DNA of 64,000 nucleotides, taken from a bacterium (lineage in GTDB: Bacteria > Bacteroidota > Ignavibacteria > SZUA-365). Below are positions 2,181 through 61,855 of the stretch, one piece after another. The translations under genes were made by a program, and so were the position numbers. Positions within the stretch are counted from its first letter, which is position 1. Every line of letters starts with the position of its first letter. The notes under the pieces are model-generated. The model worked only from the letters and a program-made list of their open reading frames with translations. It was not told where the DNA came from and made no database searches. The DNA is taken from positions 1 to 64,000 of the forward strand of contig JAHLLD010000016.1 in assembly GCA_020444325.1 (NCBI GenBank), written 5' to 3'.

Positions 2181-3850
2181 CAGAGCAGGGCGGGTTCATG
2201 AAAGCGCTGGCGTTTTTCCTTTTCCTGCTGCTGTTCCCGGCTGCTGCGCTGCTGGCGCAGGACGACGGGACGCAGGAAGGTGGGATGAAAACGGTCGGGG
2301 GACAGGTGACGTACGTCACCAGTACGCAGGTCTACGGCAGCATCGGACGCAAGCATGGGTTGCGGGAAAACGACACGGTGCGTGTGCTGCAGAAAGGCAA
2401 ATCCGTCGGCGTGCTCATGGTGGCGCACCTGGCATCGTCTTCGTTTTCCGCGAACATCCTCAGCAAGACGGGCACCATCGTCAAAGGCGACAGCGTCGTC
2501 GCCCGCGTGCCGCGCATCGTCGTGCCTCCTCGGACGGAACTCACCGGTGCCGACACCGCGAAAATGCGCACGGTGCAGCGCGAGGCGCCCCCCGCACTCG
2601 CAACGCTCGAAGCCGCTGCATCAGACAGCAGGGAATTCCGGATCCATGGACGTGTGTCCATGCAGTACTATGCATTGTTCAACAGCAGGATCAGCGGTGC
2701 GGCATTCACACAGCCTGCAGCCCGCGTCAACCTGATGATGGACAATATCATGGAGCTGCCGCTGCAGCTGCAGTATTACTCGAATCACCGCTATGACGCC
2801 CGCAGCGATGATGCACGCAGGGGAGTGACGCAGGACCGCTGGCGGCATCGCTTCTATCAGTTTGCGCTCAATTACGGGGAAGACGATGGTCCGGTGCGCG
2901 CGACCGTGGGACGTTTCGTGCCGTACACGGTGGGGGGAATAGGGACGGTGGATGGTGGAATGCTGCGCGTGCAGAACGATGCGTGGGAAGCCGGTGCCAT
3001 TGCCGGATCGCAGCCGGGATATCAGAATTCGGAATTGAATTTCAGGGATCAGAAAGTCGCCGCGTACGGCGCCTACCGCAGTGGCGGGAATGCTGCGTAT
3101 TTCAGGAGCAGCGCCGCGTTTGCACAGACGTACCGGGACGGTGCCGTCGACAGAGGGTATTTCTACCTCGTCAACAGCCTTTCGCTGGGCGGGAAAGTGA
3201 CGCTGTATCAGAATGCGAGCCTCGACCTCTATGACGCGGACGATGGCAGCGGTCATTTCCAGCCGCATCTGACGGATTTGTACCTGTCCACAACCTGGCG
3301 TCCCATACGCTGGGTTTCCACAACCGCCTCGTATGCGAATCGCCGCAGCATTTTCTTCCTGCGCAGCTATGCAGGGATACCCGACTCCCTGTTCCGGGAT
3401 GCGCGCCTGCAGAACTACAGGCTCAGTGCGGGAGTAAACATTCCCGGTGGCATGTACGCGTCGCTGACTGCGTCGCTTCGTACGCAGGACAACAGTTCGG
3501 AAACCGCACAATCGCTGGCGGGTAGGTTCACATGGTCGAATTTCCTTGAATCCCGCAGCAATGTGTACCTGCTCGGGAGCTGGGCCGACAACATATTCAA
3601 TACGTCGACATCTTACGGACTCGAGATCAACAGGGATCTGCTCGAGGGATTGTACACCGCACTGCGTCTGCAGCAGTACCGTTATACCTACAGCGGGGAC
3701 GGTTCCGGAGTCAATCGTACCACAGTCTCGCTGGATGCCTACTACCGGCTGAGCAGACTGTTTTATCTTTCGCTCAGCTACGAACATTACTGGGAAGGCG
3801 TCGTCACCAACGACAGGATTTACACGGAAATCAGCATGCGCCTCAGGTGA
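2177..3850 (+). CDS. Outer-membrane beta-barrel protein coupled to the multihaem cytochrome
   Basis: 557 residues. The start chosen is the ATG whose first bases form ATGA with the cytochrome stop; GGAAGGGAG lies just upstream. An ATG seven codons later gives an even more typical signal peptide (MKALAFFLFLLLFPAAALLAQ). After the signal comes a small domain (about residues 35-120) of the FlgT-C/SH3-like type (GGQVTYV, VYGSIGRKHGL). The rest, about residues 165-557, is a long run of alternating aromatic/polar strands with paired YxxxxR/L endings, as in a 16- or more-strand barrel, ending in YTEISMRLR. No enzyme motif is seen. By position it could be the porin-like sleeve or surface partner of the cytochrome, functionally like MtrB/PioB, although sequence similarity to those is not evident. 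Barrel call fairly secure; partnership inferred from the ATGA overlap. Confidence 0.72.
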   Translation: MTEQGGFMKALAFFLFLLLFPAAALLAQDDGTQEGGMKTVGGQVTYVTSTQVYGSIGRKHGLRENDTVRVLQKGKSVGVLMVAHLASSSFSANILSKTGTIVKGDSVVARVPRIVVPPRTELTGADTAKMRTVQREAPPALATLEAAASDSREFRIHGRVSMQYYALFNSRISGAAFTQPAARVNLMMDNIMELPLQLQYYSNHRYDARSDDARRGVTQDRWRHRFYQFALNYGEDDGPVRATVGRFVPYTVGGIGTVDGGMLRVQNDAWEAGAIAGSQPGYQNSELNFRDQKVAAYGAYRSGGNAAYFRSSAAFAQTYRDGAVDRGYFYLVNSLSLGGKVTLYQNASLDLYDADDGSGHFQPHLTDLYLSTTWRPIRWVSTTASYANRRSIFFLRSYAGIPDSLFRDARLQNYRLSAGVNIPGGMYASLTASLRTQDNSSETAQSLAGRFTWSNFLESRSNVYLLGSWADNIFNTSTSYGLEINRDLLEGLYTALRLQQYRYTYSGDGSGVNRTTVSLDAYYRLSRLFYLSLSYEHYWEGVVTNDRIYTEISMRLR

Positions 3851-3905
3851 GGTGAAGCGGCGCAACAGCATGACTCGATGTTGAGACCTTGCGTCTGCGC
3901 TTCAG

Positions 3906-6194
3906 CTACCTGGCTTCGAGCCGTTTCATGATGAGGAATTCGGCGGTGAGGATGTAGTCGGCCGCAGTCGGGGTGTGTGGGAGGCCACCATAGTAATTCC
4001 CGGAGACAGGTTCAATCAGTTCCGGCAGCATTCCGTCATGTGCGTCGGCCTGTCGCGTCACTTCGGCGAACAGCGCTTCCGCCCGGGGGAGGTTGCCATT
4101 TGCGGCATAGGCACGAGCCAGACGCAGGGCGATCTGGGGACGCGCCTGCCGCGCGAACCAGTCCCCACCCGGCTCCGCGCTGTAGTACAGCGGCATGTCT
4201 TCGACGGCAAAACCGCGCTCGACGATATCGAGTGCCAGCGCAGCTTCCTTGCTGCCCCGCGGGAAGAGTCCCATGGTTATCGCATCGATAATGAAAGGGT
4301 GGAAAAAGCGACGCTGCACGGGAGACAGTGCATCCGCCTGATCCTGCGCGAGTATGTCGGCAGCAAGCGAAGCAACCGCATCCTCCGCCCGCTGCGCCGC
4401 CTGAGCGTAAAGGAAGCGCTTGAGATCGTCATGCATCACAGAGGCGTAACCGGACGCCAGGCGCAGGGAGCGTGCCGCGAGCAAGGTAGTCCACGGTGAA
4501 GGGAGGTCGGAGAGACCGGCGCCCCAGGGACTCTCGTCCTGCGCCAGTAGTCCCGCATCATCCAGCCTGTACATCAGCACATCAGCCACGAGCGATGAAA
4601 GCCGCGTCCAGTGTGGTGCGAGAAAGCTGCTGTCGGAAAACTGTTGTCCATCAATGATGGCGCCGCGCTTCCTTTCCTCACGCAATGCGTCGAAAGCGAT
4701 CAGGTAGCGTGCCATGCCGTCATAACGCAGTACGGCATCATCGGCATTCTGCCACTGCCACTCCTCGCCCGTCCCGAAATACGCGGCGGGGGAGACGAGG
4801 TAGGGGAAGCCTACACCGTGCTGGGTGCCGAAGACATCGAAGAGCTTGTAGCGCTCATGTCCGGCAGCAGCGATGAAATCGAGTGCATGTTCCGCGGCAT
4901 CGGCCATGCCGGCTCCGGCCAGTGCCTGAGCCGCCAGAAGGTGATCAGCGGCATGAGTCGCGGTGCGTGTGGGGGGCTGAAGGGCGGTGAGTATCTGTCC
5001 CTCCGCCAGACCGGGTTCCCGCACCTGGGTAGCGAGCAGGGTGCTGACGGCGCGGCGGTAGACGCGTTTCTCGGCGGGACGAAGGGATTCAGGAAGATAG
5101 CGCATGGTGGAAAGACGCCGTGTGCGCCGGGCGATTTCAGCATCGAGTCCGTACGCTTCTGCGCCACGTTCGAGAAATGCTTCCATATCGCGATCCACCA
5201 GTTCGGTGCAGCACGAATTGTACGCGAGAAGGTGATAGGTCATGCGGGAATCCGCTCCTTCCTCCTCGCGCTCTTCATAGCGCCAGTACGGGCGATCCAT
5301 CACAAAAATTAATCCCGCTTCACGTTCATCTTCAGGACGCTGGCGCACGGCGACGACAAGGATGCGTTCGGCCGCATTGATCGGGTGATACCAGAATACT
5401 TCGCTGCCGAGGCTGCCCTGCGCGTGGCAGATGTCTGTTGCTCCGTAATACGAGAAGCTGTCAGGCAGCCACGCGCGCGTCACGCCGTCCGCATCCATGG
5501 TCAGTGAAAGCCGTGTCAGGATACGCTCCGTCGCAAGATCGGCATTGAAGCGCCCATAGGCATGCGGATGCGTCCAGAGTACCCGGCCACTGTCGCTGTC
5601 GATGGCTGAAACCATGACGCCGTTACTGATGAAATGCGGAGGAGTGAGTGGCGGTGCGTCAACGATTTCGTCGAGCACGCGGTGCATGTCCTGTGCGCGC
5701 ACGATGCGGAAAATATTTCCCGTGATTCCGCCACGATCGCCGCGGTCGTAGACACGGACGGCGAGGAGATTGAATTCCTCACGAATGAAACGCGGCAGGG
5801 GATACACACGCAGCGATCGCAGTTCGGAACGCGCATCCGGAGGGAAGGAACCTGTTTTGCCGACGAGGACGCCGTTGAGAAAGGTCTCGTCGGCATCATC
5901 GACGCCGCTCATCACGAGCAGCAGGCTGTCATCGCGCATCGAGTCGGGGATGCGGAAACGCACGCGGTACCAGGCAAATCCGTCGACGAGGGGAAAACCA
6001 TGCTGCTCCCAGGCACCAGGGACGGGAATGAAGTTCCAGTCTTCCTGTTCATCGATGTATTTCGAACGCCACACATCATCGTCACCGACGCGGAATGCCG
6101 CGAGTCCGCGCAGGTCAATGCTTGTGCTGTCCTGCGCCTCAACTGATTGGAGGGAAAAGGCGATGAGAACGAGAAAGAAGAAGGCGTGGCGCAT
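3906..6194 (-). CDS. Secreted glycosidase-like protein: jelly-roll plus alpha/alpha-toroid
   Basis: 762 residues with a clear signal peptide (MRHAFFFLVLIAFSLQSVEA). Residues about 50-170 look like the sugar-binding jelly-roll of GH2 enzymes and 9-O-acetylesterases (VPGAWEQHG, WYRVRFRIP, ETFLNGVLVG). The C-terminal half (about 360-762) is helix-rich, with a final AADYILTAEFLIMKRL that resembles an alpha/alpha-toroid of the GH15 glucoamylase type. I see no certain catalytic acid pair, so activity is open. It is the last gene of the nucleoside-salvage run, starting 4 bases after the purine nucleoside phosphorylase stop, which suggests co-transcription. The signal peptide places it in periplasm or outside. 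Oligosaccharide or glycoside breakdown that feeds sugar to the cell is the simplest guess. Confidence 0.55.
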   Translation of the reverse strand: MRHAFFFLVLIAFSLQSVEAQDSTSIDLRGLAAFRVGDDDVWRSKYIDEQEDWNFIPVPGAWEQHGFPLVDGFAWYRVRFRIPDSMRDDSLLLVMSGVDDADETFLNGVLVGKTGSFPPDARSELRSLRVYPLPRFIREEFNLLAVRVYDRGDRGGITGNIFRIVRAQDMHRVLDEIVDAPPLTPPHFISNGVMVSAIDSDSGRVLWTHPHAYGRFNADLATERILTRLSLTMDADGVTRAWLPDSFSYYGATDICHAQGSLGSEVFWYHPINAAERILVVAVRQRPEDEREAGLIFVMDRPYWRYEEREEEGADSRMTYHLLAYNSCCTELVDRDMEAFLERGAEAYGLDAEIARRTRRLSTMRYLPESLRPAEKRVYRRAVSTLLATQVREPGLAEGQILTALQPPTRTATHAADHLLAAQALAGAGMADAAEHALDFIAAAGHERYKLFDVFGTQHGVGFPYLVSPAAYFGTGEEWQWQNADDAVLRYDGMARYLIAFDALREERKRGAIIDGQQFSDSSFLAPHWTRLSSLVADVLMYRLDDAGLLAQDESPWGAGLSDLPSPWTTLLAARSLRLASGYASVMHDDLKRFLYAQAAQRAEDAVASLAADILAQDQADALSPVQRRFFHPFIIDAITMGLFPRGSKEAALALDIVERGFAVEDMPLYYSAEPGGDWFARQARPQIALRLARAYAANGNLPRAEALFAEVTRQADAHDGMLPELIEPVSGNYYGGLPHTPTAADYILTAEFLIMKRLEAR

Positions 6195-41100: not shown

Positions 41101-41284
41101 ATCACCCCGGAAGTGGATTCATGAATCCCCCCAACGTAACCACGCTCTGCGTCGGGACGCCATGGAAAAATGGAAAGATAGAATGATGGAAACATCAGGT
41201 AACCGATCCGGAAGGTTATAGACGTAAGGGCGATTCACGAATCGCCCTGGATACACGGAAGGAAAGACCAAATCAGGAAAAATC
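41101..41284. repeat. REP-like palindromes and degenerate REP copy
   Basis: Contains the GATTCATGAATC copy at about 41115-41128, a degenerate CACGCTCTGCGTCGGGACG element near 41141, its purine tail (ATGGAAAAATGGAAAGAT) and a third palindrome (GGGCGATTCACGAATCGCCC, 41228-41247). No gene is visible. The same components occur at 20717 and 42709. Confidence 0.6.
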
Positions 41285-41995
41285 ATGAACATCTTATTCA
41301 CCGGTCCCGCGGGACTGATCAGCGAATGGCTGGAATTATGCAAGGATCACAACTGTGTCGTGTATGCGCGCGGTGTGAAGAAGAAACTCGATGACGACGT
41401 GCAGCTGGTGCATGCGCTGGACGAAGCGCCGCATGTGGATCTCGTCATCGATCTGCACGTGCGGATGTCCAAGAACCGCCGCATTGTACTGAGCGACATC
41501 ATTGCCGACCTGAGCCACGACGCGCCCATTCTGTGCAACACCGTATCCACCACCGCGACCGAGCTGGCATCGCGCGTGAAGGCGATGGACCGGCTTGTCG
41601 GACTCGCGGCGCTGCCCGGACTGACATCCTCAGATGTTATCGAAATCGCCTTCCCGTACGGTGCGAAGCACGGACATCAGGAAATGCTATCGGATTTCAT
41701 TGCCGGACTCGGGAAGAGGATGGAAGTGGTGCGGGATGAAGTGGGACTCGTGACACCGCGCATGCTGGCAGTGATGATCAACGAGGCCGTGCTGATCTGT
41801 CAGCAGGATCTCACGGGGCAGGAGTCCATCGACGCGTTGATGAAGGTAGCCATGTCGGGTATGGGACCACTGTCCTGGGGACACCGCATCGGCTGGCGTC
41901 ATCTGTACACTATCCTCAGCGCGATGCATGAAGAACTCGGTGGTGAGCGCTACCGTCCCGCGCCGCTGCTCAAGAAAATGGCCATGATCGAATGA
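41285..41995 (+). CDS. 3-hydroxyacyl-CoA-dehydrogenase-like protein with degenerate NAD domain
   Basis: 236 residues. The C-terminal half (VGLVTPRMLAVMINEAVLIC ... IDALMKVAMSGMGPLSWGHRIG) closely follows the helical dimerisation domain of 3-hydroxybutyryl-CoA dehydrogenases. The N-terminal half is shorter than a full Rossmann domain and lacks GxGxxG (it has FTGPAGLISEW), and it keeps LPGLTSSDVIEIAF in place of the catalytic His-Glu region. It may be a non-catalytic CoA-ester-binding relative or an enzyme with unusual cofactor use. Lies downstream of icmF and overlaps the next gene start (ATGA), so a role in branched or short-chain acyl-CoA metabolism is plausible. Confidence 0.65.
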   Translation: MNILFTGPAGLISEWLELCKDHNCVVYARGVKKKLDDDVQLVHALDEAPHVDLVIDLHVRMSKNRRIVLSDIIADLSHDAPILCNTVSTTATELASRVKAMDRLVGLAALPGLTSSDVIEIAFPYGAKHGHQEMLSDFIAGLGKRMEVVRDEVGLVTPRMLAVMINEAVLICQQDLTGQESIDALMKVAMSGMGPLSWGHRIGWRHLYTILSAMHEELGGERYRPAPLLKKMAMIE

Positions 41996-42612
41996 GAACA
42001 CACCCGGGTATCCTGACAGCCGTCCTCATCCTTCTCCTCATCGCCCCGACGCTGCAAGCGCAGGACGAAACCACCTCCGACATTCTTCGCAACGAAGAAT
42101 GGATCAGCACCGGTCCGGCCGTGGGTCCCATCGTCACCTGGCACAACTTCCGGCAGGACAAATCCGGTGTCGACATCCTGCCCGGCGTGTACGCCACATA
42201 CGACCTCATGCTCGCCCAGCCCTTCCCGCGCTGGTACATCACATTTCGTCCTTCCGTGAGCATACTCTATCCCACCGCCATGATCGACGCGGTATTCCGC
42301 TTCCGCCTGCCGATCCCGTTTGCCTTCTTCGGCGGCGCCAGCTTCGATCCGACCTGGACCCGCGAATTCGCCGAAGACCCCAACCACCCGGAATTCCAGT
42401 ACGACCGCATCCTCTCCACCATCGGCCAGCGCAGTTTCGGCCTCATTGGCGCCCAGTACGTCACCAGCTTCGCCTTCTACGAACTCCAGTACCGTATCCA
42501 GCTCGAAGAAGGCGTTGACGCCTACTACCGCAAAGACGAAGCCAGTCCGCTCTCCTACACCGGAACGCGGCGGTACTTCCTCCTCTCCTTCGGAATGGGA
42601 ATAAGATTGTAG
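41992..42612 (+). CDS. Small outer-membrane beta-barrel-like protein, function unknown
   Basis: 206 residues with signal peptide (AVLILLLIAPTLQAQ). Beta-rich, with alternating strands (WYITFRPSVSILYP, IDAVFRFRLPIPFAFFGGASF, SFGLIGAQYVTSFAFYELQYRI) and a C-terminal strand RRYFLLSFGMGIRL. Probably an 8-stranded outer-membrane barrel. No family recognised with confidence. Overlaps the preceding gene by four bases. Confidence 0.65.
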   Translation: MRTHPGILTAVLILLLIAPTLQAQDETTSDILRNEEWISTGPAVGPIVTWHNFRQDKSGVDILPGVYATYDLMLAQPFPRWYITFRPSVSILYPTAMIDAVFRFRLPIPFAFFGGASFDPTWTREFAEDPNHPEFQYDRILSTIGQRSFGLIGAQYVTSFAFYELQYRIQLEEGVDAYYRKDEASPLSYTGTRRYFLLSFGMGIRL

Positions 42613-42657
42613 ATCCCAGATTGCAGATTCCAAATTGCAGATTGCAGATTACAAACT
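42608..42657. repeat. Short degenerate ATTGCAGATT repeats
   Basis: The element GATTGCAGATT and variants occurs four times in about 50 bp immediately downstream of the beta-barrel gene. Confidence 0.6.
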
Positions 42658-42708
42658 CAGCAGGAGCAGGGATTGCTTTCCTCTGAGTGTACCTGGGAGT
42701 CTGCTTTT

Positions 42709-42950
42709 CATCGTCCCCACGCTCTGCTACATGTTCATCGTCCCCACGCTCTGCTACATGTTCATCGTCCCCACGCTCTGCGTGGGGATGTCTTTATGCG
42801 CCGCTCTGCGGCGATTGGGACGACTAAATGAACGCGGAGCGTTCGGGAATCACGTCCCCACGCGGAGCGTGGGGACGATGAGCTGCTACGCCTGGGGACG
42901 ATGAAGATATTTCCATCTTTCGATATTTCCATTTTTCCATCCCCCCGCAT
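42709..42950. repeat. REP cluster: three 27-bp direct units plus an inverted palindromic unit
   Basis: CATCGTCCCCACGCTCTGC repeats at 42709, 42736 and 42763 with a 27-bp period (joined by TACATGTT). The third copy completes the palindrome with GTGGGGATG. An inverted full palindrome (CGTCCCCACGC/GCGTGGGGACG) sits at about 42853-42880, and an A/T-rich stretch (TTTCCATCTTTCGATATTTC) follows. No gene is visible in 42613-43041. Confidence 0.75.
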
Positions 42951-52783: not shown

Positions 52784-53961
52784 TGACGACAGCCTTTTTC
52801 GATATTATCTCGGGTATCAGCGGCGACATGACGCTGGGTGCGTTCGTGAGCGCTGGCGTGTCGTTCGACGCATTGAAAGCCGAGCTGGCGAAACTCCCGC
52901 TCAAGGGCTATACGATTTCACAGCGCACGCTGATGCGCAGTATGGTGGCGACGGTGAAAATCGATGTGGAGATGGATGCGGGTGAGCACGAGCACCATCA
53001 TCGCGGACTCCATGCCATCGAGGAAATTATCACCACGAGCGGACTTTCCTCCCGCGTGCAGGAACGGGCGATGGACATGTTCCGTAACCTGGCGCATGCC
53101 GAGGCGCGGGTGCATGATACGACGCCGGATAAAGTGCATTTTCACGAAGTGGGCGCGGTGGATTCCATTGTCGATATCGTGGGCGTCGCCATCTGCATGG
53201 AACTTTCCGGGGTGGAGCGGGTGTATACGTCCCCGGTGCGCACCGGTTCGGGCGGCTTCGTCAACACGCAGCACGGACGCATGCCCATTCCCACTCCCGC
53301 AACAGTGGAATTGCTGAAAGGATATCCCACGGAACTGACCGACATCCCCTACGAACTGACCACTCCCACTGGCGCAACCATCGTGGCCACACTGTCTGAC
53401 GGCATGCTGCCCCCGGAAGCCGGTTTCATTCCGCGTTCGATTGGCTATGGCAGTGGAGGAAAAGACATTCCAGGGACGCCGAATATGCTGCGTCTGATGA
53501 TCGGGGAAGTGGACGATCAGCCGCGGGACGAAACGCTGCTGCAATTCGACACGAATATCGACGACATGAATCCGGAGCTGTTTCCTTTCGTGCTCGAGCG
53601 TTTGCTCGCGGCAGGAGTAAACGACGCCTGGCTGACCCCGATACAGATGAAGAAAGGTCGTCCCGCCATGCAGCTCAGCGTCCTTGCCGTCCCTGGTCTG
53701 CGAGATGACGTTCTTCAACTGCTCTATGCCGAAACCAGTACCGCGGGCGTGCGCGTGCAGGAAATTCGCCGCCACCGTCTTCCGCGTGAACAGCGTCGCT
53801 GCATGACGCGCTTTGGCGAAGTCGTGGTCAAGGCTGTGGGTGAAGGAGAGGACATCCTGCTCATCCCCGAGCATGAAGAATGCCGCCGCGTTGCGCAAGA
53901 ACACAATCTTCCGTTAATTCAGGTATATCGTGAAATCGAACAGGATCTTGCCCAGCTGTAA
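52783..53961 (+). CDS. larC: Nickel-pincer cofactor biosynthesis protein LarC
   Basis: 392 residues in one unbroken frame, unlike species that need a frameshift between LarC1 and LarC2. Starts TAFFDIISGISGDMTLGAF, the LarC signature, with His-rich GEHEHHHRGLHAI (Ni binding) and VHFHEVGAVDSIVDIVG. LarC inserts Ni into the pyridinium bis-thiocarboxylate nucleotide using CTP. No larB, larE or racemase gene lies in the window, so the client enzyme must be elsewhere. Coupled to pyrF by TAATG. Confidence 0.93.
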   Translation: MTTAFFDIISGISGDMTLGAFVSAGVSFDALKAELAKLPLKGYTISQRTLMRSMVATVKIDVEMDAGEHEHHHRGLHAIEEIITTSGLSSRVQERAMDMFRNLAHAEARVHDTTPDKVHFHEVGAVDSIVDIVGVAICMELSGVERVYTSPVRTGSGGFVNTQHGRMPIPTPATVELLKGYPTELTDIPYELTTPTGATIVATLSDGMLPPEAGFIPRSIGYGSGGKDIPGTPNMLRLMIGEVDDQPRDETLLQFDTNIDDMNPELFPFVLERLLAAGVNDAWLTPIQMKKGRPAMQLSVLAVPGLRDDVLQLLYAETSTAGVRVQEIRRHRLPREQRRCMTRFGEVVVKAVGEGEDILLIPEHEECRRVAQEHNLPLIQVYREIEQDLAQL

Positions 53962-53971
53962 CCGGAGCTTG

Positions 53972-55270
53972 ATGAAACGCCTGCTGAACATACTTCTCTT
54001 CATCCTTCTCGCCACCACCGCGGTGCATGCGCAGGAGGATCTCGTGCGTCCCGAAGAAGTACCGCAGGATCTGCGGGATGCGATCATCGAGGAATATTTC
54101 GGTGAGAATTTCTCGCTTGCCATTCTGTGGGAGCATTATCGTACCGAGACACTTCTTCTGCTGATTGTGGCGCTCGGCTTCATCATCGGCGTACGGAATT
54201 ACGCCAAGAGTCTGGCTCGGCAGGAGCAGCGAGTATTCGACACCCTGCAGTCCAACGCCGTGATCATCTTCGACCGTGCCGCCGATCTGAAAATGATCAA
54301 TCGCGCGGCGAAGCAGCTGCTCGGACTCGATGAGTACGTTTCCATGACGGAGGACTACAAGTATTATCTCAAGAACGCTCCTTCGCCCGAAATCCTCGAA
54401 GTGTTCGATGAACTGCAGAATTCCCGTCACGCGGTGGAGCGGGAAGTAGTTTTCAATCACGGCAAGGTCATGCGCACGCTCATCGTCAAAGCCTATCCGC
54501 TGTACACCGAGAGCAAGCGGCACGACGGTTACATCATGATCATCGCCGATATCACCGAAGCGATTGAGAAAGACCGGCGTGTCAACTGGTCCGGCGTCGC
54601 CCAGCACGTGGCGCACAAGGCCAAGACGCCGCTGTCCACCATCACCCTCACCGCACAGCACCTCGAGATGGTGCTCAGCGAGCGGGATGATGACAGTGAT
54701 TCGGCGGAAACGACGCGCTACATTGATCGTATCGTAGGTGAGTCACGCAAGCTCAATGAAATCGTGCACAATCTCACGCGTCTTGCGAACAAGGAGCAGA
54801 TGAACCTGCTGCCCAACGATGTGAACATCGTGCTGCAGAACATCGCCGATGAATATCGTTCCAAGGTCACGCGCAACGTGGAAATCATCACGCATTTCTA
54901 CCGGAACATCCCGAAGGTGGGAATCGACATTGCGCATTTCCCCGAAGCCGTGGAAAACCTGCTCGACAACGCCGTGCGCGCACTTGGTTCGCGTGAAGGA
55001 CGCATCATTATTGCCACGGCACCGGGACAGTGGATCAATCGTCCCGGAGAGTACGTGGAAATCACCATACAGGACACCGGCGTGGGTATGGATGAGGAAG
55101 TGAAAAAGAGTATCTTTCGGCCATTCTCCACGCACAGCAAGGGCGGGACGGGACTCGGTCTCGTCATCGTGCAGAAAATCATCCAGGAGCATCACGGCGA
55201 GATCACGTTCAACTCATCGCCAGGACTCGGTACCACGTTCCAGATTCGTTTACCCGTCACCAAATATTGA
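53972..55270 (+). CDS. Sensor histidine kinase (PAS, HisKA, HATPase) paired with the NtrC-type regulator
   Basis: 432 residues from ATG 53972, preceded by CGGAG. Signal-like N-terminal helix and a second transmembrane helix (ETLLLLIVALGFIIGV, about 60-74), a PAS-like domain (about 85-200), HisKA with VAHKAKTPLS (His215), and HATPase with NLLDNAVRAL, DTGVGMDEE and GGTGLGLVI. The H-box HKAKTPL is a variant form. Divides 9 bp from the response-regulator gene behind it, so the two form a two-component system. Confidence 0.92.
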   Translation: MKRLLNILLFILLATTAVHAQEDLVRPEEVPQDLRDAIIEEYFGENFSLAILWEHYRTETLLLLIVALGFIIGVRNYAKSLARQEQRVFDTLQSNAVIIFDRAADLKMINRAAKQLLGLDEYVSMTEDYKYYLKNAPSPEILEVFDELQNSRHAVEREVVFNHGKVMRTLIVKAYPLYTESKRHDGYIMIIADITEAIEKDRRVNWSGVAQHVAHKAKTPLSTITLTAQHLEMVLSERDDDSDSAETTRYIDRIVGESRKLNEIVHNLTRLANKEQMNLLPNDVNIVLQNIADEYRSKVTRNVEIITHFYRNIPKVGIDIAHFPEAVENLLDNAVRALGSREGRIIIATAPGQWINRPGEYVEITIQDTGVGMDEEVKKSIFRPFSTHSKGGTGLGLVIVQKIIQEHHGEITFNSSPGLGTTFQIRLPVTKY

Positions 55271-55279
55271 CGCAAAACC

Positions 55280-56647
55280 ATGGAAAAACCCCTCATACTC
55301 ATCGTCGACGACGAAGAAGACTTTTGCCAGACCGTATCCGACATCCTCGAGCATTCCGGTTATCGCACTGTCGTCAAGCAGAATCCCGTTGAAGCCCTCG
55401 AGCTTTTGCAGGTGCAGCAGGTAGACCTCGTGCTGCTCGACATCCTGATGCCGCAGATGGACGGCAGGCAGGTGCTGACCGAAATCGTGCAGGCACATCC
55501 CGAGATTCCCGTCATCATGATTACGGGACAGGCATACAACGTTCCTGTCGCCATTGAAACGGCGAAAAAGGGAAGTTTCTCCTTCCTTGCCAAGCCCATT
55601 GACCTCGTGCAGCTGAAGGAATCCGTCAAAATGGCGCTCGACAGCAAGCGTCCCAAGGTCATTTCCAACACCATCGAAGAAGTGATGAAGGAAGTGGGCA
55701 TTGTGAGCGCCAGTAAGTCCATCGAACAGATCATGGGCATGGCCGAGAAAGTCGCCAAAACCACCGTCTCGGTGCTCATCACTGGCGAAAGCGGTGTGGG
55801 GAAGGAAGTGCTCGCTACGTCCATCCACAAGCTCAGCAATCGCCGCGAGAAGCCTTTTGTCAGTGTCGACTGTGGGACGCTCACCGAAACGCTGCTCGAA
55901 TCAGAGCTCTTCGGTCACGTCAAGGGTGCCTTCACCGGCGCGCACACGGACAAGAAGGGACTGTTTGAAATCGCCGATGGCGGGACGATTTTCCTCGATG
56001 AAATCGGCAACACCACCGTCACCTTCCAGCAGAAGCTGCTGCTCGTGCTCAACAACGGCAAAGTGCGCCGCGTGGGCGATACGCAGGAGAAGGATGTTGA
56101 TGCGCGCGTGATCAGCGCAACAAACAAGAACATCCCCGAGCTGATTGAACGCGGGGAATTCCGGGACGACCTGTATTTCCGTCTCAACAAGTTCGCCATC
56201 CACATTCCGCCCCTGCGGGAGCGTTCCGAAGACATTCCGCCGCTCATCAGGCATCTGCTGTCCAAAGCCTGCAAGGAGCACAACCTGCAGAATCATTTCT
56301 TCTCGCCGGCGGCACTGGATCTGATGACGAAACAGGACTGGCGGGGTAACGTGCGTGAACTCGATTCTGTCGTCACCAAGCTCGCCATCTTCGCTGAATC
56401 CGAGGAAATCGACGTCCACACCGTGGCGCACGCCCTCAAAGCCGAAATCCAGGGACAGCGCTCGTATCAGATCGACAATCGTCCCCTCATGGAACAGGTC
56501 GAAGACTTCGAGAAAAAGCTCATCATCGAAGCCCTGCGCGCCAACGGCGGCAATCAGACACGCGCCGCAGAACAGCTCGGCGTCGAACGCACGAACTTCG
56601 TCAAAAAAATGCGCAAGCACGCCCTGCACAAGGAAGACTTCGCATAA
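55280..56647 (+). CDS. Sigma-54-dependent response regulator (NtrC family)
   Basis: 455 residues. Receiver with Asp10/Asp11 and phospho-acceptor Asp54 (LLDILMPQ), AAA+ domain with GESGVGKE (Walker A), KGAFTGA (sigma-54 contact loop) and GGTIFLDEIG (Walker B), and a Fis-type HTH (NGGNQTRAAEQLGVERTNFVKKMRKH). All elements needed to open sigma-54 promoters are intact, so the genome should encode RpoN. Controlled by the kinase upstream; targets unknown. Confidence 0.95.
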   Translation: MEKPLILIVDDEEDFCQTVSDILEHSGYRTVVKQNPVEALELLQVQQVDLVLLDILMPQMDGRQVLTEIVQAHPEIPVIMITGQAYNVPVAIETAKKGSFSFLAKPIDLVQLKESVKMALDSKRPKVISNTIEEVMKEVGIVSASKSIEQIMGMAEKVAKTTVSVLITGESGVGKEVLATSIHKLSNRREKPFVSVDCGTLTETLLESELFGHVKGAFTGAHTDKKGLFEIADGGTIFLDEIGNTTVTFQQKLLLVLNNGKVRRVGDTQEKDVDARVISATNKNIPELIERGEFRDDLYFRLNKFAIHIPPLRERSEDIPPLIRHLLSKACKEHNLQNHFFSPAALDLMTKQDWRGNVRELDSVVTKLAIFAESEEIDVHTVAHALKAEIQGQRSYQIDNRPLMEQVEDFEKKLIIEALRANGGNQTRAAEQLGVERTNFVKKMRKHALHKEDFA

Positions 56648-56691
56648 GGAAAAAGCAGAGTTCGCCTCCCGCGATTTTTCGCCGCGAGCTC

Positions 56692-56722
56692 TTGCATTTT
56701 TATCCGGCTCAATCTATATTTG
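56692..56722 (+). promoter_or_regulatory. Promoter of tRNA-Gly
   Basis: TTGCAT (56692-56697), 17-base spacer, TATATTTG (56715-56722). The downstream element fits both the sigma-70 -10 and the Bacteroidota TAnnTTTG -7 element. An inverted repeat (ATTCACCTCG/CGAGGTGAAT, 56724-56757) follows, just in front of the tRNA, in the 5' leader. Confidence 0.7.
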
Positions 56723-56759
56723 TATTCACCTCGACGCACTGAAAATACGAGGTGAATCT

Positions 56760-56832
56760 GCGGGAATAGCTCAGTTGGTAGAGCGCAACCTTGCCAAGGT
56801 TGATGTCGCGAGTTCGAGTCTCGTTTCCCGCT
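56760..56832 (+). tRNA. tRNA-Gly (anticodon GCC)
   Basis: 73 nt cloverleaf: acceptor GCGGGAA/TTCCCGC, D-arm GCTC/GAGC, anticodon stem CAACC/GGTTG with loop TTGCCAA (anticodon at 56793-56795), T-arm GCGAG/CTCGT with loop TTCGAGT. Discriminator U; the 3' CCA is not encoded. One G-U pair in the T-stem. Confidence 0.96.
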
Positions 56833-56840
56833 CGAAGCAC

Positions 56841-56877
56841 AAAAAAAGTCCCGCGCTATTCGCGCGGGATTTTTTTT
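56841..56877 (+). terminator. Rho-independent terminator after tRNA-Gly
   Basis: TCCCGCGC (56849-56856) pairs with GCGCGGGA (56862-56869) around TATTC, followed by eight T and preceded by seven A, so the A/T arms extend the stem. It would work in both directions. Confidence 0.92.
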
Positions 56878-56882
56878 GTGCT

Positions 56883-57038
56883 CGATGGCGAGGGCGAGGG
56901 CGAGAGCGAGGGCGAGGGCGAGAGCGAGGGCGAGGGCGAGGGCGAGAGCGAGAGCGAGGGCGAGAGCGATGGCGAGGGCGAGGGCGAGAGCGAGAGCGAT
57001 GGCGATGGCGAGAGCGATGGCGATGGCGAGAGCGATGG
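56883..57038 (+). repeat. Hexanucleotide array, left (GCGAGG/GCGAGA/GCGATG)
   Basis: About 26 units of a six-base repeat with the pattern GCGA[G/T][G/A]. It starts directly after the tRNA terminator. It is mirrored, in opposite orientation, by the array at 57459-57590. Confidence 0.92.
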
Positions 57039-57119
57039 GTTTTTGGGGTGTTTTTAGAGGTTGTTTTCAGGATGTTTGTATAGACAATCTAGTTCATCAC
57101 TAATAGGGAGTATTGTGTG

Positions 57120-57458
57120 ATGTTTGCACATGAACAACTGGACGTTTATCAATGCGCACTTGAATTTGTTGAGTGGTCATCGAGAATTCGACAACGACTT
57201 AATTCAATGCAGCGAAACATCAATGATCAACTACAACGCGCAGAAGAGTCCATACTTCTGAATATTGCGGAAGGAAATGGCAAACGCCGTGGTCCAGACC
57301 GTAGACGGTATCTGGAATCCGCACGCGCAAGTGCAGGCGAATGTGCAGCAGCCATCGATATTCTAAGGGTCACAAACAGAATAAGTGAATCTCAGGCCGA
57401 GACAGGAAAGGAGCTTCTCGATCGCATTGCAGGGATGCTAACGAAAATGATCAAGTGA
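57120..57458 (+). CDS. Four-helix-bundle protein (23S-rRNA intervening-sequence/S23 family)
   Basis: 112 residues from ATG 57120 (GGGAG nine bases upstream; a GTG one codon earlier is possible). The family pattern is clear: LDVYQCALEFVEWSSRI, QLQRAEESILLNIAEGNGKRRGPDRRRYLESARASAGECAAAIDI, then SQAETGKELLDRIAGMLTKM. These proteins are named from ORFs in 23S-rRNA intervening sequences and are structurally related to the Avd proteins of diversity-generating retroelements; molecular role unclear. AT-richer than its flanks. It is held exactly between two inverted hexamer arrays, and its stop codon abuts the right one. Confidence 0.9.
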   Translation: MFAHEQLDVYQCALEFVEWSSRIRQRLNSMQRNINDQLQRAEESILLNIAEGNGKRRGPDRRRYLESARASAGECAAAIDILRVTNRISESQAETGKELLDRIAGMLTKMIK

Positions 57459-57590
57459 TCGCACTCGCCATCGCTCTCGCACTCGCAATCGCCATCGCTC
57501 TCGCACTCGCAATCGCCATCGCTCTCGCACTCGCACTCGCACTCGCACTCGCACTCGCTCTCGCCATCGCTCTCGCACTCGCAATCGATC
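57459..57590 (-). repeat. Hexanucleotide array, right (inverted orientation)
   Basis: About 22 six-base units; on the minus strand they read GCGAGT, GCGAGA, GCGATG and GCGATT. Starts at the base after the four-helix-bundle gene stop and ends at the stop of the PAP2 gene on the minus strand. Stretches such as GCGAGAGCGATGGCGA occur in both arrays, so the two can pair into a long stem enclosing the gene. Confidence 0.92.
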
Positions 57591-58535
57591 TTATATTCTC
57601 TTCACAGCGAGTTTGTGTGCGGTTTTCTCTCTCCACCTCGTCCATGCGTAGTCGAGGTATCCTCCCATCTCCATTGTGAGCCAGGCGAATATTCCGCCGG
57701 CGATGAGATCGATGACGTAGTGGTATCGGAGGTAGACGGTGGCGATGATGAGGAGGCTGCCGCCGATGAGGAGGTACCAGCGTGTTCGGGCCCGGTAGCG
57801 GAAGGCGATGAGCATGACGAGGAGGGTCATTTCGGTGTGTCCGCTGGGGAAAACGTCGCGCTGGACTCTGGCAGCAGGGTGGGTTGTGCCGGGGGGAATG
57901 GATTCGCCTGCGTTGGTGTTGTCGCGCAGGAAGCTGGTGACAAGCAGTCCGGGCAGTTCTTCGTCGGTGCGGTCGAATTCGTGCTGGGTGAAGCGGGGAC
58001 CGATGCCGGGCACGGCGATGTACCCGAGATATGACAGGTAAAAGCCGAGCATGACGAAGAGGAAGACGTGCTTGAAGGCGCGCACGCGTTTCTTGCGGTA
58101 CAGGTCGATGGTCAGGATGAGGGGCAGGAAGTAGTACGTACCGTAGGCGATCTGCAGGATTTCGGTCAGCAACGGGTGCCGCAGGCGCATGGTCCATTCC
58201 GTCACATGCACGCCGAACAGGGCGCGGTCGATGGCGATGAGTGCGGCGTCGTAGTCGATGGGATGGATGGCCGGAACGAGAAAGTACAGTTCCTTGAATG
58301 CCAGCGGGACGCAGAGGAGGAGATAGTATCCATGCAGGAGGTTCCAGAAATGTCCTTTGCGCGCAGCCACGTGCGCAAGGAAACCGACGAGAACCACGAG
58401 CAATATGTTGCTGATGGCGAAGAGATGCCAGTTCGGGAAGTCCTCGGACCAGATCATCACGGCGATGGTCAGGAGCACGAAGAAGACCGAATTGACGAGG
58501 TCCGTGGTGTTATAGTGGAGGAGGAGTTTCTTCAT
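57591..58535 (-). CDS. PAP2-family membrane phosphatase
   Basis: 314 residues from the ATG giving MKKLLLHYNTTD; a TTG three codons earlier is an alternative. At least six transmembrane helices. PAP2 sites: VFPSGHTEMT (PSGH) and YLRYHYVIDLIAGG (Rx4-Hx3D), with AFPSGH-like context of the Aur1/Ipt1 subgroup. Acts on a lipid-linked phosphate such as undecaprenyl pyrophosphate or phosphatidate outside the cytoplasm. 47 bp after mgtE, probably same transcript. Confidence 0.87.
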   Translation of the reverse strand: MKKLLLHYNTTDLVNSVFFVLLTIAVMIWSEDFPNWHLFAISNILLVVLVGFLAHVAARKGHFWNLLHGYYLLLCVPLAFKELYFLVPAIHPIDYDAALIAIDRALFGVHVTEWTMRLRHPLLTEILQIAYGTYYFLPLILTIDLYRKKRVRAFKHVFLFVMLGFYLSYLGYIAVPGIGPRFTQHEFDRTDEELPGLLVTSFLRDNTNAGESIPPGTTHPAARVQRDVFPSGHTEMTLLVMLIAFRYRARTRWYLLIGGSLLIIATVYLRYHYVIDLIAGGIFAWLTMEMGGYLDYAWTRWREKTAHKLAVKRI

Positions 58536-58582
58536 GGTTGTCAATCAATCACCGCGGGATGCTGCGGTGAAGGGCAGCCTGA

Positions 58583-60004
58583 TCACAGGTAAATCAATGT
58601 CAGGAATCCGAGGTAGATAAACAATCCCAAAGCGTCGTTGGAGGTGGTGATGAAGGGACCGGTTGCAAGGGCGGGATCGATTTTCATACGATCGAGCATG
58701 AGCGGGACTGTCGCACCCACAAGTGTTGCGTTGATGATGACGACGAGGAGGGAGAGTCCGACAGTAATGCCGAAGTTGATGTCGTTGATCCAGAGGTAAA
58801 CCACTCCGAATAGAAGCAGGCTGCAGATTGTCCCGTTCATCAGAGCAGCAAGCAGCTCTCTACCCAGTCTGAGAAATGTGCTGCTCAGTGCAAGTTCTCC
58901 GGTTGCAAGTCCACGAACAACGATGGAGGAAGCCTGAATGCCGGCATTGCCGCCCATGGCCATGATAACAGGAATGAAAAACGCGGCGGCAATGACCTGA
59001 CTGATTTCCACTTCGAAGCTGGAGAGCACGAGCGCAGCCAGTAGTTCTCCGGCGAAGCCTACCAGGAGCCAGGGGAGGCGTCCTTTGAATATATCGAAAA
59101 CGCCGGAGGAGGAATCCGCATCGTCGAGAATACCGGACATGCGCTGGATGTCTTCCTGTGCTTCCTCGTGGATAACGTCGGCGATATCATCGAAGGTAAT
59201 GAGTCCAACGGGACGATGTTCATCATCCACAACAGGCAGCGTCAGCAGATCGTATTTACGCATGACGTTGGCGACGTCTTCCTGGTCGACATCGGTTCGC
59301 ACACTGATCACTTCCGCATCCATGATTTCGGCGACAGGTGTGCTGCGGCTGCGGAGCACCAGCGTCTTCAGGTCGATGATACCGCGCAGTTTTCCCTCGT
59401 CGTCCACCACATACACTTCATAAATGTCTGGCGTTTCCTCGGAAATCATCCGCACCGCGTCAATTGCGTCGCGTATGCTTCCCCCGATTTCGACAACGGG
59501 AAACTCCGTCGCCATGAGTCCGCCGGCCGTATCCTCTTCAAATGCCAGCAGTTCGCGCAGCTCGGCACTGTCTTCGGGCTCGAGTTTTTCGAGGATCTGC
59601 TCGGCAATTTCCTCGTCCATTTCCGAGACAATATCCACCGCATCATCGGAGTCCAGTTCCTCGACGATTTCGGTCAGACGGCGAGCGCTGAGTTCTTCCA
59701 GCAGTTCTTCGCGCACATGCTCGTGCAGGTCGAGAAGTACTTCGGATGCTTCTTCGGGCGGGAGCAATTCGAAAAGATAGCGCGCATCCTCGTCCGGCAA
59801 CTCGTTGATGATGGTTGCGACGTCGGCCGAGTGCAGGTCGGTGAGGATGTTCATCAGCGCGGCGGTCGACCGCGCGTCCACCAGCACGCGTATGTCTACC
59901 AGCAGTTCTTCGTCCGCAATGGTGGTGGTAGACTGCACACCGTCGACGGAGTCGAAGAATACCTCTTCTTCTTCGTTCAGGTCTTCATGTCTGTCATCAG
60001 TCAT
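58583..60004 (-). CDS. mgtE: Magnesium transporter MgtE
   Basis: 473 residues from ATG 60004, which overlaps the end of ksgA by 8 bases; an in-frame extension upstream lies wholly inside ksgA. Order: N-terminal superhelical domain rich in acidic residues (SADVATIINELPDEDARYLFELLPPEEASEVL), two CBS domains (GLMATEFPVVEIGG, AEIMDAEVISVRTDVDQEDVA), five transmembrane helices with MAMGGNAGIQASSIVVRGLATGEL. The acidic pocket closes the pore when internal Mg2+ is high. Confidence 0.95.
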   Translation of the reverse strand: MTDDRHEDLNEEEEVFFDSVDGVQSTTTIADEELLVDIRVLVDARSTAALMNILTDLHSADVATIINELPDEDARYLFELLPPEEASEVLLDLHEHVREELLEELSARRLTEIVEELDSDDAVDIVSEMDEEIAEQILEKLEPEDSAELRELLAFEEDTAGGLMATEFPVVEIGGSIRDAIDAVRMISEETPDIYEVYVVDDEGKLRGIIDLKTLVLRSRSTPVAEIMDAEVISVRTDVDQEDVANVMRKYDLLTLPVVDDEHRPVGLITFDDIADVIHEEAQEDIQRMSGILDDADSSSGVFDIFKGRLPWLLVGFAGELLAALVLSSFEVEISQVIAAAFFIPVIMAMGGNAGIQASSIVVRGLATGELALSSTFLRLGRELLAALMNGTICSLLLFGVVYLWINDINFGITVGLSLLVVIINATLVGATVPLMLDRMKIDPALATGPFITTSNDALGLFIYLGFLTLIYL

Positions 60005-60806
60005 GCGGCACCATGATATTGCTGAGAGTGATGAAATCGGTGACAGACAGCGCTTCCGGGCGGAGCGGGAGATAATCCGCCGCCGCAGGGGGGAAGTCCC
60101 CACGGTCGCGTCCCAGCTGTCTGAGCGAGTTGCCGAGCGTCTTTCTTCTCTGTCCGAATACGGCCTTTACCAGCATTCTAAAAAACGAATAATTTTCAAT
60201 TTCTCCCAAACGGTTGTCCCGAAAGTCGAAATGAACCACGCTCGACCACACTTTGGGCCGCGGCACGAATACGTTGGGGGAGACATGAAAGCACTTCCGC
60301 ACGCTGCAATGCACGCCGCAGAGAACGGACAGGATGCCGTATTCCTTTCCTCCCGGAGGAGCCAGGATGCGCTCGGCCACTTCCCGCTGCATCATGAATA
60401 CGGCGTCGCGCAGGTACTGCTCCTCACGGAAACAGTGGAAGAGAATCTGGCTTGTGATGTTGTACGGCAGGTTGCCGATGAGGCGGAGAGCACGTGAAGT
60501 GCCGGACGCAAGTGCTTGCATATCAAGCTCCAACACGTCTTTATGCAGAAAGTGCATAAAGGCGGGATGGTCGTCGCCGAAACGCTCTTCAAGCGCTGTC
60601 ACCGCACGCGCATCCACATCCACTGCCGTCAGGTGGATATCCTTTTCAGCCAGAATGGCAGTGAGCACACCGGGTCCGGGACCGATTTCCAGCACATGCT
60701 CACCGGCTGCGGGATCCAGCGCGCCGACAATATTGCGCGCCACATTCCCGTCATGCAGGAAATGCTGTCCCAGACTCTTCTTCGGTGTATACGGTGCGCG
60801 GCCCAT
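59997..60806 (-). CDS. ksgA: 16S rRNA (adenine1518/1519) dimethyltransferase KsgA
   Basis: 269 residues from the ATG giving MGRAPYTPKKSLGQHFLHDG; longer in-frame starts lack family similarity. Motif I EIGPGPGVLT, the acidic VDVDARAV, catalytic motif IV NLPYNIT, and VFVPRPKVWSSVVHF. Dimethylates two adenines in helix 45 of 16S rRNA. First gene of ksgA-mgtE-PAP2; divergent from era. Confidence 0.95.
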   Translation of the reverse strand: MGRAPYTPKKSLGQHFLHDGNVARNIVGALDPAAGEHVLEIGPGPGVLTAILAEKDIHLTAVDVDARAVTALEERFGDDHPAFMHFLHKDVLELDMQALASGTSRALRLIGNLPYNITSQILFHCFREEQYLRDAVFMMQREVAERILAPPGGKEYGILSVLCGVHCSVRKCFHVSPNVFVPRPKVWSSVVHFDFRDNRLGEIENYSFFRMLVKAVFGQRRKTLGNSLRQLGRDRGDFPPAAADYLPLRPEALSVTDFITLSNIMVPHD

Positions 60807-60922
60807 GCCCCAAGATACAAAAATCACCTCACCCTGTGTGAATGGTGTTTCACGACCACATCGGCAGTGTGTGGTAAACATTGCGAATACGGCGGGAAAC
60901 ATCTACTTTGATCGACAGGTAC

Positions 60923-61855
60923 ATGAGTTTTGCTCACCTGACGGACCCTATGGAACAGATACCGGAAGATTTCCGCTGCGGCTATGTCGCACTGATCGGC
61001 GCCCCGAATGCGGGGAAGTCCACCCTCATGAATGCCATTCTCGGCATGAAAATTTCCATCGTTACGGCGAAGCCGCAGACCACGCGCAAGCGGGTGCTGG
61101 GCTTTCACACCGGCGACGATGCGCAGATGATTTTCATCGATACGCCCGGACTCATCAAACCGAAGTATGTGCTGCAGGAGTCCATGGTCAACGCGGCCTA
61201 CAGCGCGATCGCGGAAGCGGATCTGTGCTGTTATCTGATCGACGCCCCACGTGTGCTGGAAACGGGACGCGCGCTGCCTGAGGGACTGTTTGAGATATTC
61301 CGCGAAAGTGGTCGTCCTGTACTCGCCGTGCTCAACAAGGTGGACCTCGTCGAGAACAAACGCGAGCTTCTGCCGCTGATGCAGACGGTGAAGGAAAGCT
61401 ACGAGTTCGCTGATATCATCCCGATTTCCGCGCTGGAGGGGGAAGCCGTCCCCGCGCTGCTGGACGCAATTGAAAAGCGGCTGCCGACGGGACCCCCGCT
61501 GTATCCGGAGGACATGCTGTCGGATCAGCCCGAGCGCTTTTTCGTGAGCGAAATCATACGGGAAAAGATTTTCGAGCAGTTCCGCCAGGAAGTGCCGTAT
61601 GCCACCGAGGTGTACATTGCTGAGTACCGCGAGGAGGAGGAACGGGACTATATCGCCGCGGAAATCATTGTCGAAAGGGAAAGCCAGAAGCGCATCATCA
61701 TCGGTGCGAAAGGCGCCGCAATCAAGCGCATCGGGATGTCCGCCCGCGAAAGCATTGAAGAATTTCTCGACCGCCGCGTCTTTCTCGATCTGCACGTGCG
61801 CATCCGCGAAGGCTGGCGTGACAACGAGGCGTGGATACGGCGTTTCGGTTATTGA
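60923..61855 (+). CDS. era: GTPase Era
   Basis: 310 residues from ATG 60923 (ACAGG upstream); an ATG at 60950 is the alternative. G1 GAPNAGKST, G2 KPQTTRKRV, G3 DTPGLIKP, G4 NKVDL, and a C-terminal KH domain (ESQKRIIIGAKGAAIKRIGMSARESIE). Binds the 3' end of 16S rRNA during small-subunit assembly; being next to ksgA, which acts in the same step, is functionally sensible. Confidence 0.95.
   Translation: MSFAHLTDPMEQIPEDFRCGYVALIGAPNAGKSTLMNAILGMKISIVTAKPQTTRKRVLGFHTGDDAQMIFIDTPGLIKPKYVLQESMVNAAYSAIAEADLCCYLIDAPRVLETGRALPEGLFEIFRESGRPVLAVLNKVDLVENKRELLPLMQTVKESYEFADIIPISALEGEAVPALLDAIEKRLPTGPPLYPEDMLSDQPERFFVSEIIREKIFEQFRQEVPYATEVYIAEYREEEERDYIAAEIIVERESQKRIIIGAKGAAIKRIGMSARESIEEFLDRRVFLDLHVRIREGWRDNEAWIRRFGY

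Follow-up and report, generated by a model that had tools for sequence, protein, structure and literature searches.

The window analysed here, 64,000 nt of an Ignavibacteria genome, carries a small S23 gene between two tandem arrays of hexamers in opposite orientation, and this arrangement recurs far beyond the locus. Many S23 genes of other genomes lie between inverted arrays of short repeats whose two arms match each other and whose unit tracks the protein. S23-less derivatives of such arrays are dispersed in genomes, and related species differ at syntenic sites in the presence and orientation of the cassette. From sequence comparison we consider it probable that the S23 cassette is an S23 gene between inverted arrays of its cognate repeat, that the protein acts on the repeat hairpin and that the cassette and its derivatives are copied. 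S23 proteins, the intervening sequences (IVSs) of rRNA and heptamer arrays were each known beforehand; the link between them is the new part. Searchable open-access papers yielded no earlier report of this link, and the only relevant one on S23 or GxxExxY together with tandem repeats is the Coxiella IVS paper (PMC4990558), subscription journals and preprints lying largely outside this search.

The cassette between the tRNA-Gly and PAP2 genes

The left neighbour is a tRNA-Gly(GCC) gene (56760..56833, forward strand; ARAGORN and Rfam RF00005), followed on its 3' side by a bidirectional terminator-like stem with T runs (56843..56880), recognized in the sequence and in a scan of the minus strand. 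The tRNA terminator stem itself occupies 56849-56869 and precedes a T run, and the left array begins a few bases after it. This 5' arm (56883..57035, forward strand; TRF and arm alignment) comprises 25.5 hexamers of the types GCGAGG, GCGAGA and GCGATG and is G-rich on the gene strand. A leader (57036..57116, forward strand) with a Shine-Dalgarno-like AGGGAG at 57105-57110 connects it to the S23 gene (57117..57458, forward strand), which starts at GTG 57117 or ATG 57120, ends with TGA at 57456-57458 and encodes 113 aa. The 3' arm (57458..57587, reverse strand; TRF, alignment and fold) begins at the stop codon and consists of about 21.7 hexamers that read GCGAGT, GCGATT, GCGAGA and GCGATG in reverse complement. 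It ends 3 nt short of the stop of the convergent right neighbour, a PAP2-superfamily gene (57591..58544, reverse strand; ORF list and Pfam).

GCGANN is the unit of both arrays, and each arm aligns locally to the reverse complement of the other in a gap-free stretch of about 124 nt (score 153). The coordinates agree with the sequence-only reading of this DNA, which had the arrays frame the gene in opposite orientation, the left one starting after the tRNA terminator and the right one running from the stop codon to the next gene. Its description of an AT-rich gene in a GC-rich setting also holds, the GC content being 46% for the gene, 36% for the leader and 58% for the whole window. Folding of the cassette RNA, which had been proposed as a check, yields one long stem with the ORF in its loop (z = -24 against 20 dinucleotide shuffles). 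The fold and the arm alignment both support the proposed IVS-type plan of a stem with an ORF outside rRNA, a plan far more general than was suggested.

The S23 gene is the sole ORF with family support between the arms. Its product matches PF05635 with 76.1 bits (cut-off 33.8) and TIGR02436 with 65.6 bits (cut-off 24); the enclosed gene matched no other Pfam family, and no nuclease or transposase was found between the arms. The predicted structure is a four-helix bundle (pLDDT 96), closest among solved structures to 2gsc (XCC0516, TM 0.92) and 2rld (BT_0352, TM 0.84). The next structural neighbour is the DGR protein Avd, which has the same fold (TM ~0.8) and a weak sequence match (PHROG 3206, E 0.0074). 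Solved structures of S23 proteins have been available since 2006 (2gsc), and we know of no function assigned to them. Codon differences among S23 relatives are concentrated at third positions, and the protein is therefore under purifying selection. The Rfam search of the window matched only the tRNA, a sigma-70 promoter scan for the S23 gene found none, and PADLOC gave no defence-system match.

Inverted arms around other S23 genes

The genome has three S23 genes in total, each between tandem arrays with a unit that differs per gene. One of the two further genes has CAGATTA heptamers on one side and their reverse complement on the other, and the remaining one lies between a 24-mer and a 22-mer array with a common inverted AAACACCT core. 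Across 43 regions of this and related genomes, TRF showed most S23 genes to be flanked left and right by short arrays, the units usually being 6-8 nt or multiples of this and differing from place to place.

Arm complementarity was scored by aligning the 400-bp left flank locally to the right flank after reverse complementation. Control scores came from random positions within these regions (median 19), and their 99th percentile of 29.6 was used as threshold. Among related genomes, 36 of 45 S23 loci exceeded it in inverted orientation and 6 of 45 in direct orientation. A score above 40 was reached by 60% of the true pairs and by 1% of the pairs obtained when arms were swapped among loci. A multi-phylum sample of 78 loci, including Planctomycetota, Chloroflexota, Acidobacteriota, Bacteroidota, Clostridia and archaeal Methanophagales, contained 41 loci above the control in inverted orientation and 6 in direct orientation; the genome-contig scan was queried with six closer S23 proteins, and the resulting sample is biased to one subfamily. 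In a 30-locus sample of the class, 18 of 29 S23 loci exceeded the control, and none of the HepT (0/23) or ParE (0/24) control genes from the same genomes did so. Clear complementary arms also flank six of eight S23 genes on finished plasmids of Nostoc, Anabaena, Calothrix, Trichormus and Riemerella, for example GGGAGTA...TACTCCC and GGGAACA...TGTTCCC. By these counts the arrangement is not an isolated oddity of the window locus. The flank test is blind to short arms, giving scores of only 22 in Xanthomonas and 26 in Rhodanobacter despite plain GGGAATC-type arms, and the reported fractions are therefore probably low; for about half of the distant S23 loci, no arms are indicated at this threshold. 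The arrangement also occurs in a single-contig genome (G008) and in complete plasmids, which rules out an artefact specific to a genus or an assembly.

Genes of the GxxExxY family (PF13366; loci L199-L228) have inverted arrays on both sides as well, with 17 of 25 above the control and a more uniform unit of the CACNGAG/CGCNGAG type. Judging by these flanks, GxxExxY is a second gene family on the same plan as the S23 cassettes. On plasmid pANA02 of Anabaena sp. 90, an S23 gene with GGTGACA arms (L406, 1177-1545) lies between cas6 and cas4, inside a type I-D CRISPR operon.

The similarity of units correlates modestly with that of the S23 proteins (r ~0.2), and units soon differ once proteins diverge; the Mantel r is 0.20 overall and 0.17 across genera, values reached by 0 of 2000 permutations, and the opposite-strand control gives r = 0.03. 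Two relatives of the window S23 in another genus, G009:C80 (the nearest, 60% aa) and G009:C70 (49%), have units of the window type, which in this clade is [T/G/C]CGANN or TCGANNN. At a site where S23 lies between accB and accC (both named by eye from flanking sequence, without a family search), the unit is GGGAATC in Xanthomonas, GGGATTC in Rhodanobacter and GTGATTC in Luteimonas; the two arms agree in each genus and therefore change in concert. In 75 of 84 elements, the upstream arm contains more G than C when read on the gene strand (p = 4e-14). Such a polarity is what would be expected if a single strand, either RNA or ssDNA, were the functional form.

Syntenic sites and arrays without S23

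For the second S23 gene, the syntenic site holds a cassette in the own genome (G000) and in G001 and G002; in G003 the cassette is absent and three GTGCAAM heptamers remain with no S23. The S23 proteins of congeners at one syntenic site are 48-58% identical and have different units, which could be due to replacement rather than co-evolution. At the site of the third S23 gene, the cassette has opposite orientations in G000 and G002 and is absent from G001, where a neighbouring OsmC-like gene (identified by eye) is flipped with respect to the genes around it and has repeat arrays at its borders (L388, G001:C34, ~2515-2930 of the reverse complement). This suggests that the OsmC-like gene was inverted through the arrays. 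The comparison of presence and orientation between strains that the sequence-only reading had proposed is answered, for related species, by cassettes that are present, absent or inverted at syntenic sites. At the window site, G002 has other sequence and no S23 between PAP2 and tRNA-Gly. A clean paired empty site was sought at this locus and none was found, the G002 junction being unreadable with other sequence in place; the window arms are repetitive, and no clean empty site was found from which a target-site duplication could be read.

Beside the third S23 cassette lies a stretch of ~260 nt (L005 ~3720-3980, G000:C1) that is 84-90% identical in G001 and G002. It contains a strong GACCGCCGCAAGG...CTTGCGGCGG stem, has no Rfam or tmRNA match and is a candidate structured RNA.

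Unit families of the arms also occur as arrays and hairpins without S23; all array censuses are samples of genomes. Dispersed CAGATTN arrays occur in three congeners with a matching-clade S23 at one syntenic site and are almost lacking in two congeners without it at the same site. Solo YCGANN arrays are found in only 5 of 61 genomes, mostly in G000, G009 and G011. The window-clade S23 is present in G000 and G009, both rich in these arrays; G011 has the arrays and no window-clade S23 in its 88%-complete assembly. A solo hairpin at G009:C119 joins both arm variants of the S23 element at G009:C80, with the gene missing. Octamer mini-hairpins of the form ATGGAAAT...ATTTCCAT number ~20 in G000, as against 9 in G002, its closest relative, and none in three congeners. 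Short-unit arrays are tenfold rarer in G021, which lacks S23 (0.3 per 100 kb in a 323-kb sample), than in G000 (3.0 per 100 kb), a comparison that is weak because a congener carrying four S23 genes reaches no more than 0.6 per 100 kb.

In the own genome, solo arrays are more numerous than S23 cassettes, so that arrays may exist independently of the gene. The sequence-only reading had held that random low-complexity expansions, equally common without the gene and free of co-variation or insertion polymorphism, would speak against it. For the most part the data are otherwise, with arrays enriched around S23, arms that co-vary and syntenic sites that differ; what does apply is the existence of gene-free arrays in excess of cassettes.

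Further repeats were observed in the window and at contig ends. Two other array families, ATGGAAAN octamers and CAGATTN heptamers, are present without S23 at 41162-42937, and 42707-42781 is a perfect tandem repeat of 27 bp. Long 219/438-bp tandem repeats at 3-1705 have a consensus resembling multihaem cytochrome (CxxCH) repeats. At L066 (5434-6106), a GCGANN array comes after a nucleotidyltransferase-HepT-like pair; contigs C16 (end) and C3 (start) both terminate within such an array, probably a single one split by assembly.

Known systems, rival explanations and meaning

The fold relates S23 to the accessory protein of DGRs, Avd, which acts in an RNA-protein complex. In contrast to a DGR, a reverse transcriptase did not stand out among the ORFs at 53000-61000, nor did a template/variable repeat next to the gene. 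Unlike in a DNA transposon or IS, the inverted repeats of the window cassette enclose no transposase gene.

Like the window cassette, the 23S IVSs of Leptospira and Coxiella have an S23 ORF looped out of a stem that terminal inverted repeats form. In the Coxiella IVS, which RNase III cuts out, S23 is directly preceded by 2-3 tandem GACAGAT heptamers, in a copy number that varies among strains (PMC4990558). The window cassette differs from these IVSs in its intergenic position between tRNA-Gly and PAP2, in arms that are long tandem arrays of locus-specific units, and in the dispersal of related S23-less arrays through the genome. An IVS in the 23S rRNA of this genome, for which a check had been suggested, did not turn up: model positions 15-1955 of 2925 (about two-thirds, the rest being off the contig) contain no insertion of IVS size.

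REP/BIME/REPIN sequences with their RAYT proteins resemble the S23 system in pairing dispersed short hairpin repeats with a cognate protein gene (PMC2817692, PMC3116915); REPs are palindromes of 20-40 nt, whereas S23 units are tandem 6-8-mers. S23 is, unlike RAYT, a four-helix bundle without a known nuclease domain, and no Y1/HUH transposase is enclosed. Short tandem arrays of 7-mers like the S23 arms have been described as GGGAATC in Xanthomonas campestris (186 arrays, 70 convergent inverted pairs, cause not agreed) and as intergenic GGGGA(T/C)T in Nostoc (PMC4692102), as TAACTGA in Beggiatoaceae (PMC4679880) and as cyanobacterial STRR. Neither S23 nor four-helix genes came up in word searches of PMC4692102 and PMC4679880. 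In our data, X. vasicola has an S23 gene between GGGAATC-type arms, and plasmid S23 genes of Nostoc and Calothrix lie between G-rich heptamers.

The best reading of these data is a two-part, IVS-like element, made of an Avd-like protein and a hairpin of cognate short repeats. The cassette transcript would form a long hairpin whose loop contains the ORF, and the S23 protein would bind the hairpin of its own repeats, most likely as RNA because the arms keep a fixed polarity relative to the gene. Through this complex, cassettes and derivatives lacking S23 may reach further intergenic sites by copying and may be tolerated in transcripts. The enzymes would come from the host or from other elements, with RNase III doing the processing and either a reverse transcriptase or a repair polymerase the copying; within rRNA, a cassette of this kind is the known 23S IVS. 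Counting against this reading, no catalytic residues have been shown in S23. The earlier suggestion of a fold-back element or a structured RNA with its own protein is in large part supported, its mobility and RNA function being what we infer, along with hairpin binding and action at the RNA level.

Its main rival makes the arrays primary, spreading by slippage, template switching or another element, with S23 and GxxExxY genes merely inserting or surviving in inverted pairs. Such a scheme fits the many solo arrays that these families have in the own genome, the three S23-less heptamers of G003 and the enclosure of GxxExxY genes by another unit family. We nonetheless judge it unlikely, as the unit follows the S23 protein across genera, the arms are inverted rather than direct with a strand polarity fixed relative to the gene, and YCGANN arrays are missing from 56 of 61 genomes, the cognate S23 clade being present in two of the three rich ones. 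Chance low-complexity sequence beside an ordinary gene could appeal to hexamer and heptamer slippage, which is common in bacteria; the random-position, swapped-partner, direct-orientation and control-family tests and the unit-protein correlation rule it out, and we grant it next to no probability.

A distinctly unlikely alternative is an ssDNA element like REP/RAYT, with cruciform or lagging-strand hairpins as substrate and S23 as a DNA-binding accessory. It shares the anatomy of REP/BIME-like dispersed hairpins with one protein gene, strand polarity fits ssDNA as well, and a gene is inverted between arrays in G001, but the enclosed protein matches PF05635 only, with no nuclease, and its closest relatives of known context act with RNA (Avd) or sit in rRNA (IVS). 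The long stem might instead be a local regulatory device without mobility, serving to isolate or stabilise the S23 mRNA or to provide autoregulation, possibly via repeat number. Dispersed S23-less hairpins with the same units, and presence, absence and inversion among congeners, are left unexplained by this very unlikely proposal, which draws on the strong stem with the ORF in its loop, the start of the 3' arm at the stop codon and the differing repeat copy number of Coxiella strains (PMC4990558).

Taken more broadly, the two-part element proposed here may represent a class of mobile elements without their own transposase, in which an Avd-like protein recognizes hairpins of cognate 6-8-nt repeats and spreads cassettes and S23-less hairpins. 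STRRs, Xanthomonas GGGAATC arrays, many intergenic heptamers and rRNA IVSs would then be products of one S23-repeat system and GxxExxY a second such system, a generalization that we put forward tentatively and at somewhat less than an even chance. The data join S23 proteins with heptamer arrays, which have no agreed cause (PMC4692102), and with IVSs, whose source is not known (PMC4990558). Each S23 protein is predicted to bind the repeat of its own genome, and array families to rise and fall with the cognate S23 clade. The recurrence of gene and cognate repeat in many bacterial phyla and in archaea suggests that the S23 family and the unexplained short repeats scattered in many bacterial genomes are parts of one genetic element.
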